Below are positions 56,305-64,000 of a stretch of 64,000 nt of DNA, piece after piece. Source of the DNA: Chitinivibrionales bacterium (GTDB lineage Bacteria; Fibrobacterota; Chitinivibrionia; Chitinivibrionales; FEN-1185); NCBI GenBank assembly GCA_035516255.1, contig DATJAL010000025.1, positions 62,001-126,000 on the forward strand. Direction: 5' to 3'. The notes below the pieces were generated by a model. The model made no database searches. It was not told the DNA's origin and worked only from the letters and a program-made list of their open reading frames with translations. Position 1 is the stretch's first letter. Each line of letters begins with the position of its first letter. The position numbers and the translations under genes were made by a program.

Positions 56305-59127
56305 TTACCGCACCGCGAGCACGCGCTTTACACATTGATAGCCGCCGTCAAGGGTGAACCGGACAAAATACACGGTGTTGCCGGCCATGTCCCGGCGCGC
56401 CTTCATTCCCTCAAAACCGATCGAGTGGAACCCGGCTGCCTGATACGCGGCCGGCACGCGCATGACCACCCTTCCGCTTGCGCTGACGATGTCGACGGAG
56501 ACGGTTGCCGCTTTACTCATCAGATACCGCAGGGTCCCAGCCGAATACATGATCCTGAAGCTCGGCGCGGCTATTGACGAAGCGGAACTCGTGCGGGGAC
56601 AGCGAGTTCCCTCCATAATGGAAACCGCCGGATTTACATTATAAGAAACCGTGCCGGTCCCGAGTCCCGCCGAAGAAGCGGAAACCGTCACCGTGCCGGC
56701 GGTGAACGTCGACCGCACCGCCACCTTGCACATCCCGCCCTCGGCCGAGAGCTCATGGTCGAGCGGCGAATGAAAGCCGAGCGGCTTGCCGGCCGTGACG
56801 TACTGGTCCGACCCGCCGCGGTAATCGCCGGGCCCGGTCACGGCAAAGGTGACCGGGTTGCTCGCCGTAGGACACCAGATTCCGCTTGCGTCAACCACCG
56901 TGGCGAGAATGAAGGCCGCGTCGCTCCCGTTCGCCGTGATCTGGAAGGTGTCGCCGTCGGACCTCACCAGCGGCGGCTCCACGGTCAGCACGATGTGGTC
57001 GGCGGGACCAGCGGTCTTCTTCTCGTCAAAGCACACCACGTTTCCGCTTTGGTCAAGCCCCTCGGCGCGCAGGGTCCCCGACGCCCAGGTCACGTTCCAT
57101 GAGCACTGGAACGGCAGCTGGGTGGTGGCCTGGCCGGTGCCGTCGCCGCTCCCGCTCCACGGATTGGGCGTTTTTACGCCCTGGTCCGCGCCGTTGATCA
57201 AGAGCCGCACGCTTGGGCAGTTTGAAAACGCGTTCACCTGCACCGCGCCCGACCGGTTCCAGTGGTGCGCGAGCGAAACCACGGGCTTCACCGAATACGG
57301 CAGCCACGCCGCCTGATACGCTTTGTAAAGCAATTTGGGGATGCGGTTGAAATCCATCATGGAAGACCCGAACGACCGTACGCTTCCCTCGCCCTCTCCT
57401 TCGAGGAAATTGCCCGACTCGCCCGGCGTTTCGCACAGGTACCACTGGGCGAGGCCGAAGCAGTTGGCCTGCCTTGACTTTTTCCAGTTCTGGAGGTATT
57501 CGCTCGCGAACGCGATTTCCCAGTCCCAGGCGAAGCGCGCGGTGCGGCTGCCGCCCCACGCCTCCGCGCCCCAGCACGGCGTGTTGGGCAGACCGCTCTT
57601 CATCGCGATCTCGCAGCCCGACGACGAGCACGAGATGATGTCGGCGATCGCGGGATCGGCCGCGCTGCCCCCGCGGTCGGACTGCGCCCTCGTGTTGACC
57701 GGGTCCCATGTCTGTGAAATCGCCTTGAGCTGGCCGGCGAACGTAGGATCGATGGGGCCGTTGCTCACCTCCCACGCGAGCACCGACGGGTGGTTCCGGT
57801 CGCGGATGATCATGTCGCGGTGCAGCTGGCTCTTGTAGATAAATTTCGGCGTGTTGGTCTGCTGCCCGGCGGCGAAAGTCCCCTCGAGCTCACCGCTGGG
57901 CTGCACGAGCATCACGCCGTAGGCATCGCACGCGTCAACGAACTCGGGGCTCGACGACGAATGACCGGGCCGCCAGAGGGTCGCGCCGCACTCGGCCGCG
58001 AGCTTGGCGTCGCGCCACTGCTGCTCCTCGGGAACGGCCGTGCCCAGCGCCGGATAATCGTAGCGGCTCGAAACGCCCCACAGGTACTGCTGGTGGCCGT
58101 TGAAATACGGGAAGTTGTGGTCCCACGTGATGACGCGGATGCCCAGCGGGCTCTCGAACACATCGGTGGTCGCGGCACCGACCTTGACAATATGATAAAC
58201 CTTGTAGAGGTACGGCTTGCCGTAGATGCTGCCCGCGGGGTACCAGAGTGTCGGGTTGGCGATGGTGCCGGTCTGGTCGAACACGTAGCTCGTGTCGGCC
58301 CCCACGGTCTGGGTGCTACTCTGGCTCAACACGACGTTGCCGGCGGCGTCAGTCACCTTGGTGGTGAGCGTGACGGCCTGCGGCGCGGCGTTGTCGTTCC
58401 GCACGTTCGTGAGGATCCGCACGGTCGCGGACGCGTCGGAGGCCGACACCGTGGCGACATAGGTCCCCCACTGGTTCAGCACCGAATACACGTTGAGGGG
58501 CACATGCACCTTGTCGGTGATGTGAAGCCACACCGGCCTGAACAGGCCGTAATCGCCCTGGCCGAACCGGTAGTCGATGGAGAACCCGGGATACGCGTAA
58601 AACCCTCCGTTGCCGCTCATCCTCACGGCCAGAACATTGTCCGCCCCGCCGAAGGTCACATAGGGCGTGATGTCCACGACGAACCCGATGAAGCCCACCA
58701 CGTGCGTCGCGTTCTGGTTGATGCCGTCGTTGCCGGGAAGAAACGTGCCGTTGATGTACACCGCCGCGCCCAGGTGCGCGCCCTCGATCTCCACGAAGAT
58801 CTTCCTGCCCGAATAGGCGTTATCGATTGTAAAGTGCTTGCGGTACCAGGAAACGCCGGCGTACATGCCGCCGGTGGCGCCGCCGCCCGACTGGTTGTTG
58901 AACGATTCCGTGTCGCTCCAGGTGTGCGGAATGCCCACGTCGCTCCACGCCGCGTCGCTGAACGAGGGGCTTTGGGCGCTCGCGGGGTCTCCTTTTGTAA
59001 ATTTCCAGGGCGCGGTGCTCATGTTGACCTTCACCCGGTTGCTGGGCTCGCCGGTATAGGTTTGGGCACAACACACCGCGGCCAGCGCCAGAACGGCCAA
59101 CAGCACCGGAACCATTTTCGTTTTCAT
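56305..59127 (-). CDS. Secreted GH2-family protein, copy 1
   Basis: Large secreted glycoside-hydrolase-2-type protein: signal peptide (1-22), jelly-roll sugar-binding domain (about 35-200), Ig-like domain, TIM barrel (about 330-610), two further Ig-like domains and a sorting-type C-terminal tail (VSVDIVSASGRVVMRV…VYFVRFTLDGGYQCVKRVLAV). In GH2 the barrel strand 4 motif is normally N-E (acid/base); here it reads RNHPSVLAWEVSNGP with G457 in the glutamate position. Nearby E-A-W-G (about 520) could be the nucleophile region. The enzyme may therefore use another residue or be non-catalytic. ATG at 59127 follows AGGAGG. Paralogue at 60073. Confidence 0.8.
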   Translation of the reverse strand: MKTKMVPVLLAVLALAAVCCAQTYTGEPSNRVKVNMSTAPWKFTKGDPASAQSPSFSDAAWSDVGIPHTWSDTESFNNQSGGGATGGMYAGVSWYRKHFTIDNAYSGRKIFVEIEGAHLGAAVYINGTFLPGNDGINQNATHVVGFIGFVVDITPYVTFGGADNVLAVRMSGNGGFYAYPGFSIDYRFGQGDYGLFRPVWLHITDKVHVPLNVYSVLNQWGTYVATVSASDASATVRILTNVRNDNAAPQAVTLTTKVTDAAGNVVLSQSSTQTVGADTSYVFDQTGTIANPTLWYPAGSIYGKPYLYKVYHIVKVGAATTDVFESPLGIRVITWDHNFPYFNGHQQYLWGVSSRYDYPALGTAVPEEQQWRDAKLAAECGATLWRPGHSSSSPEFVDACDAYGVMLVQPSGELEGTFAAGQQTNTPKFIYKSQLHRDMIIRDRNHPSVLAWEVSNGPIDPTFAGQLKAISQTWDPVNTRAQSDRGGSAADPAIADIISCSSSGCEIAMKSGLPNTPCWGAEAWGGSRTARFAWDWEIAFASEYLQNWKKSRQANCFGLAQWYLCETPGESGNFLEGEGEGSVRSFGSSMMDFNRIPKLLYKAYQAAWLPYSVKPVVSLAHHWNRSGAVQVNAFSNCPSVRLLINGADQGVKTPNPWSGSGDGTGQATTQLPFQCSWNVTWASGTLRAEGLDQSGNVVCFDEKKTAGPADHIVLTVEPPLVRSDGDTFQITANGSDAAFILATVVDASGIWCPTASNPVTFAVTGPGDYRGGSDQYVTAGKPLGFHSPLDHELSAEGGMCKVAVRSTFTAGTVTVSASSAGLGTGTVSYNVNPAVSIMEGTRCPRTSSASSIAAPSFRIMYSAGTLRYLMSKAATVSVDIVSASGRVVMRVPAAYQAAGFHSIGFEGMKARRDMAGNTVYFVRFTLDGGYQCVKRVLAVR

Positions 59128-59236
59128 GTCCATTCCTCCTTTTTATATTCACGCGTTTGACGCATCAGCAAACCAGCGTTTGCCCGCGGTCGCTGTTCAT
59201 TGTTTTTGCGCTTGGCTTTTCTTTGCAGCGGCAATG

Positions 59237-60007
59237 CTATTCGCCCGCTCCGTTTTCGGGTGTGGCACTGTCCAATTCGATCGGGTGACCGTACTTCCAG
59301 GTTCCACTTCTGAAAGAGAGCGTATCATGAGCTGAGGTGAATGCATCCTTAGCCATTTCAACCCGTTCAAAAGAAATGGTGGAATCATCAACCCATTTCG
59401 CGCTGTCGGGCCCCCATTTCCCGGGGGCCGAATAAAACGCCTTTGTCAATGAATCACCGGAAATCTTCCAGATTTGAAAACCATTCGCCATGAACCCGGC
59501 TTCGATGTCACGATAATCGCAGAGCAGATAGTTCCGTCCCGGGCCGATCGTCGGCCTCGATATGAGCGTGTCGCATTTGCCATTCCTCATGTTGACGGAG
59601 AGCCAATCGCCCCACTCCCATCCTTCCCGTTCGATGACGATCGCGGACAGGGCCGGCAAATAATCCGTCACGAAATATCCGACCTGCCCGTCGTTGTCCG
59701 TATGCAGCAAGGTATCGTTGAACTGAATTTTGCTTCCATTGTCAAGGATAATCGTGAGGCTCGAGTCGTTTGCCCGGAAAACTCTGTTCCGCAATTGATC
59801 CAGCAGTTTCTTTTCTTCCATCCGCATGGTTTTTTCCTGGGCATTGGGCGCCGCGTCAGGCTGACCATTTTTCTGGCTCGAGTCCGCCGACGCGGAACCG
59901 TTTGCCGCTTTCGATGGCGCTTGAGCGTTACCGGATGATTTCGGCGCGCACGAGAGCACGGCAAGAAGAAGCGTCCCTGCTGCGAGCTTAAATGAGCATG
60001 GTCTCAT
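59237..60007 (-). CDS. Lipoprotein encoded between the two GH2 genes
   Basis: Not recognised. Signal and lipobox (AGTLLLAVLSC) at the N-terminus, then a Ser/Ala/Asp/Lys-rich low-complexity stretch and a domain of about 190 residues with strand pattern (SSLTIILDNGSKIQFNDTLLHTD; AIVIEREGWEWGDWLSVNMRNGKCD; NYLLCDYRDIEAGFMANGFQIWKISGD). AAAGGA before ATG 60007 decides the start; a longer frame from 60196 lies in non-conserved sequence. Sitting between the two GH2 genes on the same strand, it may anchor or regulate them at the cell surface. Confidence 0.7.
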   Translation of the reverse strand: MRPCSFKLAAGTLLLAVLSCAPKSSGNAQAPSKAANGSASADSSQKNGQPDAAPNAQEKTMRMEEKKLLDQLRNRVFRANDSSLTIILDNGSKIQFNDTLLHTDNDGQVGYFVTDYLPALSAIVIEREGWEWGDWLSVNMRNGKCDTLISRPTIGPGRNYLLCDYRDIEAGFMANGFQIWKISGDSLTKAFYSAPGKWGPDSAKWVDDSTISFERVEMAKDAFTSAHDTLSFRSGTWKYGHPIELDSATPENGAGE

Positions 60008-60072
60008 CAGAGTTCCTTTTGATGAATTGAAAGACCCCGCTGCAAGCCACGGCGCCGCGCGTTCCTTCCGCA

Positions 60073-62895
60073 TCACCGCGAGACAATGACGCGCTTCACC
60101 GGCTGATACACGCCGTCCACTCCGAACCGCACAAAGTAAACGCCGGCCGGAAACGCCGCGCCGGCCTGGGATTTCGCGAGCTGGACCGGATGCCACCCTT
60201 CATTCTGGAGCGATGCGGGAATCGCTCTTGTCAATTTCCCGTTCGCGCTCACGATCTGCACCGACACCAGCGCCGGCCGCGCAATATAGTAGCGCAGCCC
60301 GCCGCGCATGAGAACGGCCTTGAAGGAAGAAAACGCGGAGGGTGCGGACGGACGCGTTATCATGGCCGTCGTAAACGGCGGGTCGGTGACCGGGTATACG
60401 GTGAATGCGGTCGAAGCGGCGGGCTGCGGCAGGCCCGCGCAGGTGCTCGACACCGTGACGACGCCCGGCGTGAACAGGGAGCGCACCGCGATCTTGCACA
60501 TGCCGCCCTCCATCTGGAGTTCCGGGTCGGTGGGCGCGTGCCAGGTCTTGGGCATGGCGGCGTTGACGCGCTGGTCGGACCCGCCGCGGTAGTTGCCCGG
60601 GCCGGAAACGCCGAAGGTTATGTTGTGGCTGTCAAGCGGACACCAGGTGCCGGCGCTGTCCACCACCGTGGCCAGGATGAAGGCCGCGTCGGTGCCGTTG
60701 GCGCGGATCTCGTACACGCCGCCGTCGGGCCGGACGAGCGGCGGCTCCACGGTGAGCGTCACGTGGTGCGCCGGTCCCGCGGTCTTCTTCTCATCGAAGC
60801 ACACCACATTTCCGGTATTGTCAAGACCCTCGGCGCGCAGCGTCCCGGCCTGCCATGCCACGTTCCAGTAACACTGGAACGGCAGCTGCGTCGCGGCCTG
60901 GGTGTGGTCGTTGTCCGGCGGCACGCCGGCCGCGGGATTTGGTTTCTTCACGCCCTGGCTCACGCCGTTGATGAGGAGCCGCGCGCTGTCGCAGTTGCAG
61001 AAGACGTTTACCTGAACGTTACCGGAGCGGTTCCAGTGGTGCGCGATGGCGATCTCTGGATGGAGGGAGAAAGGAACCCAGCACACCCGCCACGCGTTAT
61101 ACAGGAATTTCGGGATGCGGTTGAAATCGAGCATGGAACAGCCGAACGACCGCTCCTTCTGGTTGGGCATGTCGAGGAAATATCCGTCTTCGCCGGGCGT
61201 CTCGGACAGGTACCACTGCGCGATGCCGAAGCAGCTGTTGGCCTGGCTCTGCACCCATTCCTGCAGGTAATCGGCGACGAACGCGATCTCCTGGTCGTAC
61301 CCCCATCTTGACAAGCGGCCATAATTGCTCCAGTCCTCCGAGCCCCACGCCGGGTTGTTGGGGAAGTTGTGCTTCACGCCTATTTCGCAGCCCGTGGCCG
61401 TGCATCCGAGGATGTACCCGTTGGCAGGGCTCGGCGTGCGGTCTGCCTGCACGCGCGTGTGGATCGAGTCCCATGTATTGGCAAGCCCCTGGCACTGCTG
61501 GGCAAGGCCGGTGCTGACCGGGCCGTTGCTTACCTCCCACGCGAGCACCGACGGATGGTTCCGGTCGCGGATGATCATGTCGCGGTGCACCTCGGCCTTG
61601 AGCGTCTGGTTGCAGGGCCCGCACGCGCCCTCATGCTCGCCGCTTGGCTGCACGAGCGCGATGCCGTACGCGTCGCAGGCGGCAACAAACTCGGGACTGC
61701 ACGGAGAATGGCCGGGGCGCCACAGGTTGCCGCCGCAGCCCGACAGGATCTTCGCGTCGCGCCACTGCTGCTCCTCGGGCACGGCCGTGCCGAGCGCCGG
61801 GTAATCGTACCGCGCGGACGCGCCCCACAAAAAATGCTTGCGGCCGTTGTAGTAGGGATAGTCCTTGTCCCAGGTGAGCACGCGGATGCCGAGCGGACTC
61901 TCGAACACGTCGACCGTGGTCCCGCCCACCTTGACAATGTGATAAACCTTGTACATATACGGCCCGCCGTAGATGCTGTTGTTCGGGTACCACAGGTGCG
62001 GGTTGGCGATGTCGCCGGTCTGGCCGAACGCGTACGACGCTCCTGCGGGGACCGTCTGCGTTCCGGTGAGCGTGAGCACGACGTTGTTGTCCTTGTCAAC
62101 CACCTTCGTGGTGAGCGACACGTCGGCGGCCGCGGTCCCGTCGTTGCGCACGTTGGTCTGGAGGAACACGGTTGCGGAGGCGTCCGTGGCGGTCACGGCC
62201 GCGCAGTAGGTTCCCCATTGGTTCAGCACCGAATAGAGGTTGAGCGGCACGTGGACCTTGTCGGTGATGTGCATCCACACGGGGCGGAACAGCCCGCCGT
62301 CCGCCTGGCCGAACCTGAATATCTCGGAAAAGCCCGGGTCGCCGTAGAAGGCCTGGTTCTTGCTCACGCGCACGGCAAGCACGTTGTCGGCGCCGCCGAA
62401 CGTCACATAGGGCGTGATGTCAACCACGAAGCCCATGAAGCCGGTCACGTGCGTGGCGTTGGGGTCGGTGGCGCTGTTGCCATGCATGAACGTCCCGTTG
62501 ATGTACACCTGGCAGCCGACGTGCGCGCCCTCGATTTCAACGAAGATTTTCCGGTCGGCGTACTGATTGTCCAAAGTAAAGTGCTTGCGGTACCAGTTGG
62601 TGCCGCCGTACGCGGTGCCGTCGTCGCCGCCGCTCGGCTCGTTCACGTAGGTGTCGGTGTCGTTCCACGTGTAGGGAATGCCCACGGTCTTCCACGACGA
62701 ATCGTTGTAGCCGACCGCCTGCGGGCCGGACGCGCCGTTCATGGCCGGATCGTTCCTGAGGAATTTCCACGGCGTTTCGCCCAGATTGATCTTCACCCGG
62801 TTGCTTGGCTCGGGCGTGTAGGTTTCGGCGAAACAGAGGGCCGCCGAGATGATCACGATGATGAAAGCCGCCGCCGACATTTTTTTTGAGTCCAT
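60073..62895 (-). CDS. Secreted GH2-family protein, copy 2
   Basis: Paralogue of the downstream GH2 gene, with the same domain order and length (940 aa): signal peptide, sugar-binding domain (WYRKHFTLDNQYADRKIFVEIEGAH), TIM barrel and a sorting-type tail (VSVQIVSANGKLTRAI…VYFVRFGVDGVYQPVKRVIVSR). The same N-G replaces N-E in NHPSVLAWEVSNGP (G458), so the change is conserved between the pair and is not a sequencing error in one. The two are similar along their length, indicating tandem duplication with an intervening lipoprotein. First gene of a likely four-gene operon ending in GT9. Confidence 0.8.
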   Translation of the reverse strand: MDSKKMSAAAFIIVIISAALCFAETYTPEPSNRVKINLGETPWKFLRNDPAMNGASGPQAVGYNDSSWKTVGIPYTWNDTDTYVNEPSGGDDGTAYGGTNWYRKHFTLDNQYADRKIFVEIEGAHVGCQVYINGTFMHGNSATDPNATHVTGFMGFVVDITPYVTFGGADNVLAVRVSKNQAFYGDPGFSEIFRFGQADGGLFRPVWMHITDKVHVPLNLYSVLNQWGTYCAAVTATDASATVFLQTNVRNDGTAAADVSLTTKVVDKDNNVVLTLTGTQTVPAGASYAFGQTGDIANPHLWYPNNSIYGGPYMYKVYHIVKVGGTTVDVFESPLGIRVLTWDKDYPYYNGRKHFLWGASARYDYPALGTAVPEEQQWRDAKILSGCGGNLWRPGHSPCSPEFVAACDAYGIALVQPSGEHEGACGPCNQTLKAEVHRDMIIRDRNHPSVLAWEVSNGPVSTGLAQQCQGLANTWDSIHTRVQADRTPSPANGYILGCTATGCEIGVKHNFPNNPAWGSEDWSNYGRLSRWGYDQEIAFVADYLQEWVQSQANSCFGIAQWYLSETPGEDGYFLDMPNQKERSFGCSMLDFNRIPKFLYNAWRVCWVPFSLHPEIAIAHHWNRSGNVQVNVFCNCDSARLLINGVSQGVKKPNPAAGVPPDNDHTQAATQLPFQCYWNVAWQAGTLRAEGLDNTGNVVCFDEKKTAGPAHHVTLTVEPPLVRPDGGVYEIRANGTDAAFILATVVDSAGTWCPLDSHNITFGVSGPGNYRGGSDQRVNAAMPKTWHAPTDPELQMEGGMCKIAVRSLFTPGVVTVSSTCAGLPQPAASTAFTVYPVTDPPFTTAMITRPSAPSAFSSFKAVLMRGGLRYYIARPALVSVQIVSANGKLTRAIPASLQNEGWHPVQLAKSQAGAAFPAGVYFVRFGVDGVYQPVKRVIVSR

Positions 62896-63077
62896 GCCCC
62901 CCCCTTTTTGATCATTAATCTATTATTATTCGCTGGATGATGCGATAGCTTGGGATGATCGGGCGATCCGATAATTTCGAAATCCCCCGCGCCCCTGTGG
63001 TTAAATATAATAAATAAGGAATACTATATGAGGTTGCCGGAAAATAATGTTCACGCCAGTGAACGGCGGAGCGAAGA

Positions 63078-64000
63078 CTAATAACGGATGAATTTTGTTT
63101 GAAATGATCCGGCCAAGGTATGAAGCCTGATGAAATAAAGGCCGCACTTCAGGTTGACAAGTTCATATTCCCTGCATCCGGTGCCGCTTTTTTCCATTAT
63201 GAGCTTGCCGTTGACAGAATAAACTGAAAGCGCGTGCCTGCCTGACGACGTGATCGATATCGAGTTATTGCTTATCCGGAAATCGGTCGCTGCATATCTA
63301 CCCGCTCCCTCCGTGGGCCTGATGACCGCCGGCGATCCGATAAGCGCCGCCGCCAGCGCCTGGCCCGCCGAAATTGCCTTCTGATGGTCGGCCATGTCCG
63401 CGACTGAAGTGAACCTGGCGCCGGGTCCCCTGAAGACAATGTAAACCAGGCCCGTGTCCTGTCCGCCGGTGTTCGGGTCGTTCGGCACGCCGAGAAGCTG
63501 GGCCATTGCCGCCGATGCCTCGCCGATCTCCTGGCTCACGCCGTCCTCGTCGAGAAAGGGGGCATAGGCGATGCTCACCGGGTTTGTCTTCCTGTTGATC
63601 ACCGCCGCAAGCTGGCCGATGGCGATCCCGCGGCTGGCGTAATCAAACGGCGAGCCGACAGGCAGCACGTAAAACGGCGTTCCCGCCGCGTCAATCGGGC
63701 CGCCGTTGTCGACGCTGCATTTCACGTTCGCGTCGCAGCTCAGCAGGTTCTGGTGCGAGGGATCGGTCCCGCCGCAAACGCCGTTGTCGCTGCCGTCGCA
63801 GTCGATGTCCATGTCTGCGTCGAAAAATACCGCGCCGGTTGTCTGGAACAGGCTGATGGTCTTGTTTTGGGCCACCGGCTGCGAGGAGCTGTTGCTGCAT
63901 TGCGTGCAGAAGCCGGTGCCGCCGTTGTTCATGTCTTTGCCGTTGGCCTTCACCACGCAGTTGGCGGCAACGGCTTTCTGGCTGTCCACCCAGTTGAGAA
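63078..64000 (-). CDS. GH75 chitosanase-like secreted protein, 5'-truncated by window edge
   Basis: Endo-acting chitosanase family best known from fungi. The barrel-like signature is present: FFDADMDIDCDG, PFYVLPVGSPFDYASRGIAIGQLAAVI, and DEDGVSQEIGEASAAMAQLLGVPNDPNTGG, followed by YIVFRGPG. A sorting-type tail closes the protein (LSVYSVNGKLIMEKS…GLYFIRLHTLAGSFQTKFIRY). The frame is open to the right edge, so the N-terminus and signal peptide lie outside the window. Gene direction and spacing (182 bases upstream of the GH2 pair) suggest a chitosan- or glucosamine-polymer degradation locus. Confidence 0.75.
   Translation of the reverse strand, partial: LNWVDSQKAVAANCVVKANGKDMNNGGTGFCTQCSNSSSQPVAQNKTISLFQTTGAVFFDADMDIDCDGSDNGVCGGTDPSHQNLLSCDANVKCSVDNGGPIDAAGTPFYVLPVGSPFDYASRGIAIGQLAAVINRKTNPVSIAYAPFLDEDGVSQEIGEASAAMAQLLGVPNDPNTGGQDTGLVYIVFRGPGARFTSVADMADHQKAISAGQALAAALIGSPAVIRPTEGAGRYAATDFRISNNSISITSSGRHALSVYSVNGKLIMEKSGTGCREYELVNLKCGLYFIRLHTLAGSFQTKFIRY

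Follow-up and report, generated by a model that had tools for sequence, protein, structure and literature searches.

The catalytic residues of a glycosidase family are regarded as invariant. Plant myrosinase (GH1) is a retaining GH-A enzyme lacking its acid/base, as the proteins described below lack theirs at its usual place, but it cleaves S-glycosides and has no substitute protein carboxylate. Within family GH2, exceptions to the acid/base glutamate of the loop-4 NE motif are known in three subfamilies, GH2_16, GH2_19 and GH2_21, as set out in the available text of the 2025 subfamily division (PMC12243196). The GH2_16 exo-beta-D-glucosaminidases (PDB 2X09) have a strict SD motif, which leaves an aspartate carboxylate at the acid/base place. 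GH2_19 belongs to group III and most of its members keep NE; for those reading TV, NA or NQ (PDB 7XYR), the available text gives the activity as unknown, calls for functional work, and reports no link with a loop-3 glutamate. In GH2_21, the same source lists Trp, Lys, Arg or Asn as replacements of the acid/base. The structure 6HPD (T2KN75) is a GH2_21 beta-glucuronidase, P17_GH2 of the Formosa agariphila ulvan locus (PMC12243196; PDB title), and its highly conserved E402 has been hypothesised to be the replacement acid/base (PMC12243196, citing Reisky 2019). The phenomenon is therefore already known, although the available text of the 2025 division leaves open whether and how NE-less members act. 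The literature examined seems to contain no description of the branch treated here, which we call the NG/NA group, of its expansion or of its GH64 fusions, even though the kind itself is known from GH2_21. Literature searches on P17_GH2, on acid/base-less clan GH-A enzymes and on myrosinase-like cases gave nothing decisive, and no activity for any NG/NA member was found there.

The window is the whole 64,000-nucleotide stretch that was analysed (C25:62001-126000 of a 4.28 Mb genome in 61 contigs). It contains two GH2-like genes and a neighbouring GH75 gene:

56305-59133, minus strand: copy 1, a secreted GH2-fold protein of 942 aa (open reading frame and Pfam domains)
60073-62895, minus strand: copy 2, a paralogue of copy 1, 940 aa, with the same domains (open reading frame and Pfam)
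63078-64000, minus strand, running off the window: GH75 (endo-chitosanase family) gene with a sorting tail, 182 nt upstream of copy 2

The complete GH75 reading frame spans C25:125078-126112 (344 aa). Pfam domains PF02837, PF00703 and PF02836 scored above cut-off in both copies and in the expected GH2 order. Copy 1 consists of GH2_N, the GH2 Ig domain, the GH2 TIM barrel, DUF4982, GH2_C5 and a weak T9SS/FlgD-like tail. An AF2 model of its residues 25-845 (mean pLDDT 93.6, pTM 0.94) matched GH2 structures in Foldseek. A 319-aa reading frame with no Pfam match lies between the copies (59237-60196, minus strand) and overlaps the end of copy 2.

The residues discussed below, all on the minus strand, are as follows:

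57792-57754, minus strand: motif HPSVLAWEVSNGP of copy 1 (sequence)
61557-61519, minus strand: motif HPSVLAWEVSNGP of copy 2 (sequence)
57757-57759, minus strand: copy 1 G459, at the place of the GH2 acid/base Glu (gap-free alignment)
61522-61524, minus strand: copy 2 G458, at the place of the GH2 acid/base Glu (equivalent position)
57883-57885, minus strand: loop-3 residue E417 of copy 1, proposed to replace the acid/base (clade conservation)
61630-61632, minus strand: copy 2 E422 in loop 3, equivalent of E417 (alignment)
57889-57891, minus strand: copy 1 E415, second loop-3 carboxylate (Glu or Asp in all 19 paralogues)
57769-57771, minus strand: copy 1 E455 of the 'WE' pair, last residue of strand beta-4 (fully conserved in the clade)
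61534-61536, minus strand: copy 2 E454, equivalent of E455 (equivalent position)
57562-57564, minus strand: copy 1 E524 in GAEAW, nucleophile position (invariant; opposite E509 of the 6HPD chain)
61336-61338, minus strand: copy 2 E520, equivalent of E524 (equivalent position)
57961-57972, minus strand: copy 1 R388-P-G-H391, the conserved GH2 Arg and loop-2 His (invariant)

Both copies share RNHPSVLAWEVSNGP. The original prediction held that a glycine stands in each at the place of the acid/base glutamate, and our alignments bear this out. The motif of both copies aligned in HMMER gap-free with the ...MWSIGNE of the beta-galactosidases 8q2h, 4ypj and 7cwd, the Gly lying opposite the catalytic Glu; thus, the acid/base Glu is truly replaced in both. 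The finding that was to overturn the prediction, a glutamate displaced by a local insertion, was looked for. Neither copy has a Glu within a dozen residues after the Gly, and a Glu shifted by one inserted residue (WE..[HL]NES) occurred only in another branch of relatives. A shift in copies 1 and 2 was therefore ruled out and the observation stands. The number given for copy 2, G458, was correct; that for copy 1, G457, was two off and should read G459. Calling the two copies independent was generous, because they are paralogues (59% identical). The inference that the change is no artefact was sound, since the glutamate is present in none of the 19 paralogues described below and in no NG/NA member found elsewhere. 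The residue observation is right and does not reflect chance. Nor does loss of the NE glutamate exclude these proteins from GH2 by fold and ancestry, because exceptions are known in GH2_16, GH2_19 and GH2_21 (available text of PMC12243196).

The genome holds 19 intact paralogues, copies 1 and 2 included, on 12 contigs. They are 51-63% identical to copy 1 and together account for 1.3% of the assembled sequence (~54 kb). A PF02836 search of the genome detected no canonical NE GH2 barrel and matched these 19 proteins only; their alignment reads NG or NA at the acid/base site in every one, where GH2 enzymes have the loop-4 NE. Eight residues are invariant across all 19: N458, E524, R388, H391, E417, E455, C502 and C507. 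E524 and R388 correspond to the loop-7 nucleophile Glu of GH2 and the conserved Arg that assists it; the roles of the Arg (R388) and the loop-2 His (H391) are taken from the available text of PMC12243196. A sister genome, MAG fen_1185, whose placement in the same genus rests on genome kinship and matching loci, carries more than 20 copies, many of them apparently one-to-one orthologues. For 13 pairs of orthologues shared by the two genomes, dN/dS was 0.10-0.16 (Nei-Gojobori); therefore, the copies are old, retained and under strong purifying selection. Runs of six to eight G precede several start codons in the family: a G8 run lies directly upstream of that of copy 2 (62896-62910), and similar runs precede those of paralogues L005, L009, L014, L016 and L018. 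They would make very strong, or possibly slip-prone, ribosome-binding sites.

The conservation bears on the suggestion, also made in the original prediction, that the two copies are binding proteins. Non-catalytic pseudoenzymes that kept the GH2 fold as secreted lectins would explain the lost acid/base, and 19 secreted copies with sorting-like tails are what binding proteins sometimes show. Such proteins should, however, have lost further catalytic residues under relaxed selection. Instead neither the 19 paralogues nor the clade members from other phyla show any change at E524, R388, H391 or the loop-3 Glu, the orthologues are under purifying selection at the dN/dS values above, and the relative 6HPD is reported as a beta-glucuronidase (available text of PMC12243196; PDB title). 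We consider this explanation unlikely, and copies 1 and 2 are probably not binding proteins.

Compared with the described systems, the proteins are closest to 6HPD. It was the nearest solved structure by sequence (E 4e-84 with a single query, 1.7e-121 with a 19-row profile) and by fold (Foldseek E 8e-73, TMq 0.85, with the AF2 model as query). It reads IWEGGNWAE at the acid/base place, and shares with the NG/NA group the GH2 architecture, the absence of the NE Glu (NW in 6HPD), the WE motif, the loop-3 Glu and the nucleophile Glu. As in GH2_21, the acid/base residue of the NG/NA group is a non-carboxylate; Gly and Ala are not among the GH2_21 replacements named in the available text of PMC12243196. 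The two groups differ in several respects: identity is only ~28-30%, Gly/Ala is found in place of the Trp/Arg/Lys of the 6HPD group, and C502, C507 and E572 are invariant in the NG/NA group but not in the 6HPD group. The loop-3 Glu aligned with 6HPD chain E411 (HMMER) or E413 (MAFFT), an ambiguity of two residues, and only conservation links UniProt E402 to chain E411. A search for the exact 6HPD protein in 300 genomes of Flavicella's family yielded at best a 79% relative.

We aligned the 19 paralogues and 6HPD with relatives from genome collections. Among 140 de-duplicated sequences (four unparsed by the pattern), the loop-3 Glu was found in all parsed sequences that lack the NE Glu, and the parsed sequences without the loop-3 Glu kept NE. 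This Glu mostly lies five residues past a proline, in the patterns P-S-G-[ED]-x-E (the type of the 19 paralogues), P-A-G-D-x-E (Duganella and Pedobacter types) or P-G-V-x-G-E (6HPD types). E417 was present in 100% of 89 aligned clade sequences versus 2% of 61 others (canonical); the corresponding values were 100% versus 26% for E455 and 100% versus 16% for R487. E524, R388 and H391 were also invariant in the 89-sequence clade, across phyla.

A quick IQ-TREE analysis (LG+C20, 72 rows, trait columns left out) placed the loop-3-Glu sequences in one clade (SH-aLRT 99) comprising two sister groups: NG/NA (SH-aLRT 100), and 6HPD with the NR, NK, NT and NE types (SH-aLRT 99). The NG/NA group is thus a clade separate from the 6HPD group, on a long stem (0.78 and 0.59 changes per site). 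Members from Duganella, Massilia and Pedobacter (NR, NK, NT, or NE with AGDxE) share the clade, the loop-3 Glu and a YE motif with the NG/NA group, but some have NE and they cluster with 6HPD. Position 459 changed at least 11 times on the tree (G, A, S, W, R, K, T, Q and E were seen there) and E417 not once. Both glutamates are present in eight clade members (YECGNES; from Pedobacter, Flavobacteriaceae and others), so E417 may have another role in them. Such members would be expected if the loop-3 Glu arose first and the NE Glu then became dispensable. The both-Glu relatives (L063, L065, L080, L058 and L166-L169, reading YECGNES or CGNEVIS with AGDxE) are possible intermediates of an acid/base transfer. 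One close NG-type relative (L022, 66%) comes from a contig of 9.5 kb assigned to a Spirochaetales bin, perhaps through misbinning or transfer.

The group with no carboxylate at the acid/base site and an unchanging loop-3 Glu comprises about 50 natural sequences. They name the residue to mutate, and the coupling makes the recent question about NE-less GH2 enzymes testable.

The coupling also bears on the idea that these are retaining enzymes without any acid/base, which act on activated leaving groups or as transglycosidases in the manner of plant myrosinases (GH1). Gly or Ala at this place is indeed what synthetic acid/base-less mutants carry, and E524 is kept. Myrosinase-like chemistry nevertheless needs special substrates whereas the gene neighbourhood is one of polysaccharide degradation, and the strict coupling of the loss with E417 would be left unexplained. 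We regard this as improbable.

The reading best supported by these results is the other one offered in the original prediction, that a different residue supplies the acid/base. A gap-free count from the shared 'YG' paired E415 with E416, and E417 with H418, of E. coli LacZ (the letters of the LacZ fragment were checked). E416 and H418 of LacZ are the two loop-3 ligands of a Mg2+ that also contacts the acid/base E461, so residues at these positions adjoin the acid/base place. A carboxylate at this point of loop 3 is suitably placed for the task, and we therefore propose that catalysis follows the classical double displacement, E524 acting as the nucleophile and E417 as the acid/base. E524 would form the glycosyl-enzyme intermediate; E417 would protonate the leaving group and then activate water. 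On this view the acid/base, once at the end of strand beta-4 where NE has become NG/NA, would now sit in the loop that follows strand beta-3 (loop 3), as E417 of copy 1 and E422 of copy 2; the vacated beta-4 position may give room for an aglycone or a branched substrate. From the residue replacement, its coupling to E417, the tree and the purifying selection, we infer that the proteins are probably active retaining GH2-type exo-beta-glycosidases with E417 as acid/base. Labelling NE-less GH2 proteins 'dead', or 'beta-galactosidase' by similarity, would then be wrong annotation.

The analogy with GH2 exo-glucosaminidases that accompanied this suggestion did not hold, since those enzymes have an Asp at the equivalent place. 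Exo-beta-glucosaminidases like those of GH2_16, acting together with the adjoining GH75 chitosanase, would account for the GH75 gene, which has the same orientation as copy 2 and lies 182 nt upstream of it; yet GH2_16 has its strict SD motif (available text of PMC12243196) against NG/NA here, and the nearest relatives by sequence, fold and tree are GH2_21-like. We rejected this very unlikely identity on motif and nearest relatives, and copies 1 and 2 are probably not glucosaminidases. Least credible of all is E455 of 'AWE' as the substitute, four residues upstream in strand beta-4: although it is close in sequence and invariant in the clade, we rejected it because 15-16 relatives with an intact NE carry it too, so that its presence does not go with the loss of NE, and it also ends strand beta-4 (V451-E455 in the AF2 model), four residues further into the barrel than the acid/base position, with R487, invariant in this clade only, as a likely salt-bridge partner. 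E455 is probably a second-shell residue, perhaps paired with R487.

Clues to the substrate come from domain fusions and gene neighbours. Nine proteobacterial relatives (from Trinickia, Paraburkholderia, Caballeronia, Pandoraea, Silvimonas and an alphaproteobacterial MAG; loci L030, L033, L035, L036, L038, L039, L040, L043 and L048) are GH2-GH64 fusions of 2370-2950 aa, with the same GH2 at the N-terminus, a series of F5/8C and Ig repeats, and a GH64 beta-1,3-glucanase at the C-terminus. The fusion was present in 10 of 250 genomes of the Caballeronia family, as open frames of 2198-2886 codons. A literature search on GH2-GH64 fusions found nothing decisive. The window's genome itself has 13 GH64 profile matches in about eight open frames on contigs C4, C17, C28, C35, C44 and C45, several of them near contig starts. 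One GH64 gene is broken by an in-frame TGA, either a true break or an assembly error (C28:1663-2667, minus strand; L127:1372-2667); three clustered NG-type GH2 genes lie 2.5 kb away from it, and the same contig carries a partial GH30. Another paralogue is also adjoined by a GH30.

Together, beta-1,3-glucan, the substrates of GH30 and the chitosan context suggest the fungal cell wall, a tentative lead from fusions and gene neighbours only. The 19 copies, as members of a sister group of the 6HPD/GH2_21 beta-glucuronidases multiplied and secreted in this genome, would probably trim beta-linked decorations or ends of fungal-wall polysaccharides associated with beta-1,3-glucan. Gene multiplication and fusion to GH64 alike point towards a still unstudied activity in the turnover of fungal biomass. 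More speculatively still, the NG/NA group may be a new GH2 subfamily with its acid/base rebuilt on loop 3, in which the freed beta-4 site opened the pocket to branched fungal-wall glucans. Its diversification in a single peatland genus of Fibrobacterota would have given ~20 copies per genome, and in Burkholderiaceae it would have become fused with GH64 beta-1,3-glucanase.

A gene for SprA (type IX secretion) is present in the genome, consistent with the tails. Secreted proteins of 475-493 aa with no clear family lie beside some paralogues (L129:8485-9963, L129:10112-11569 and L133:5779-7203); the first has at most a weak GH42/xylanase-like match, and all three are possible unnamed glycosidases.
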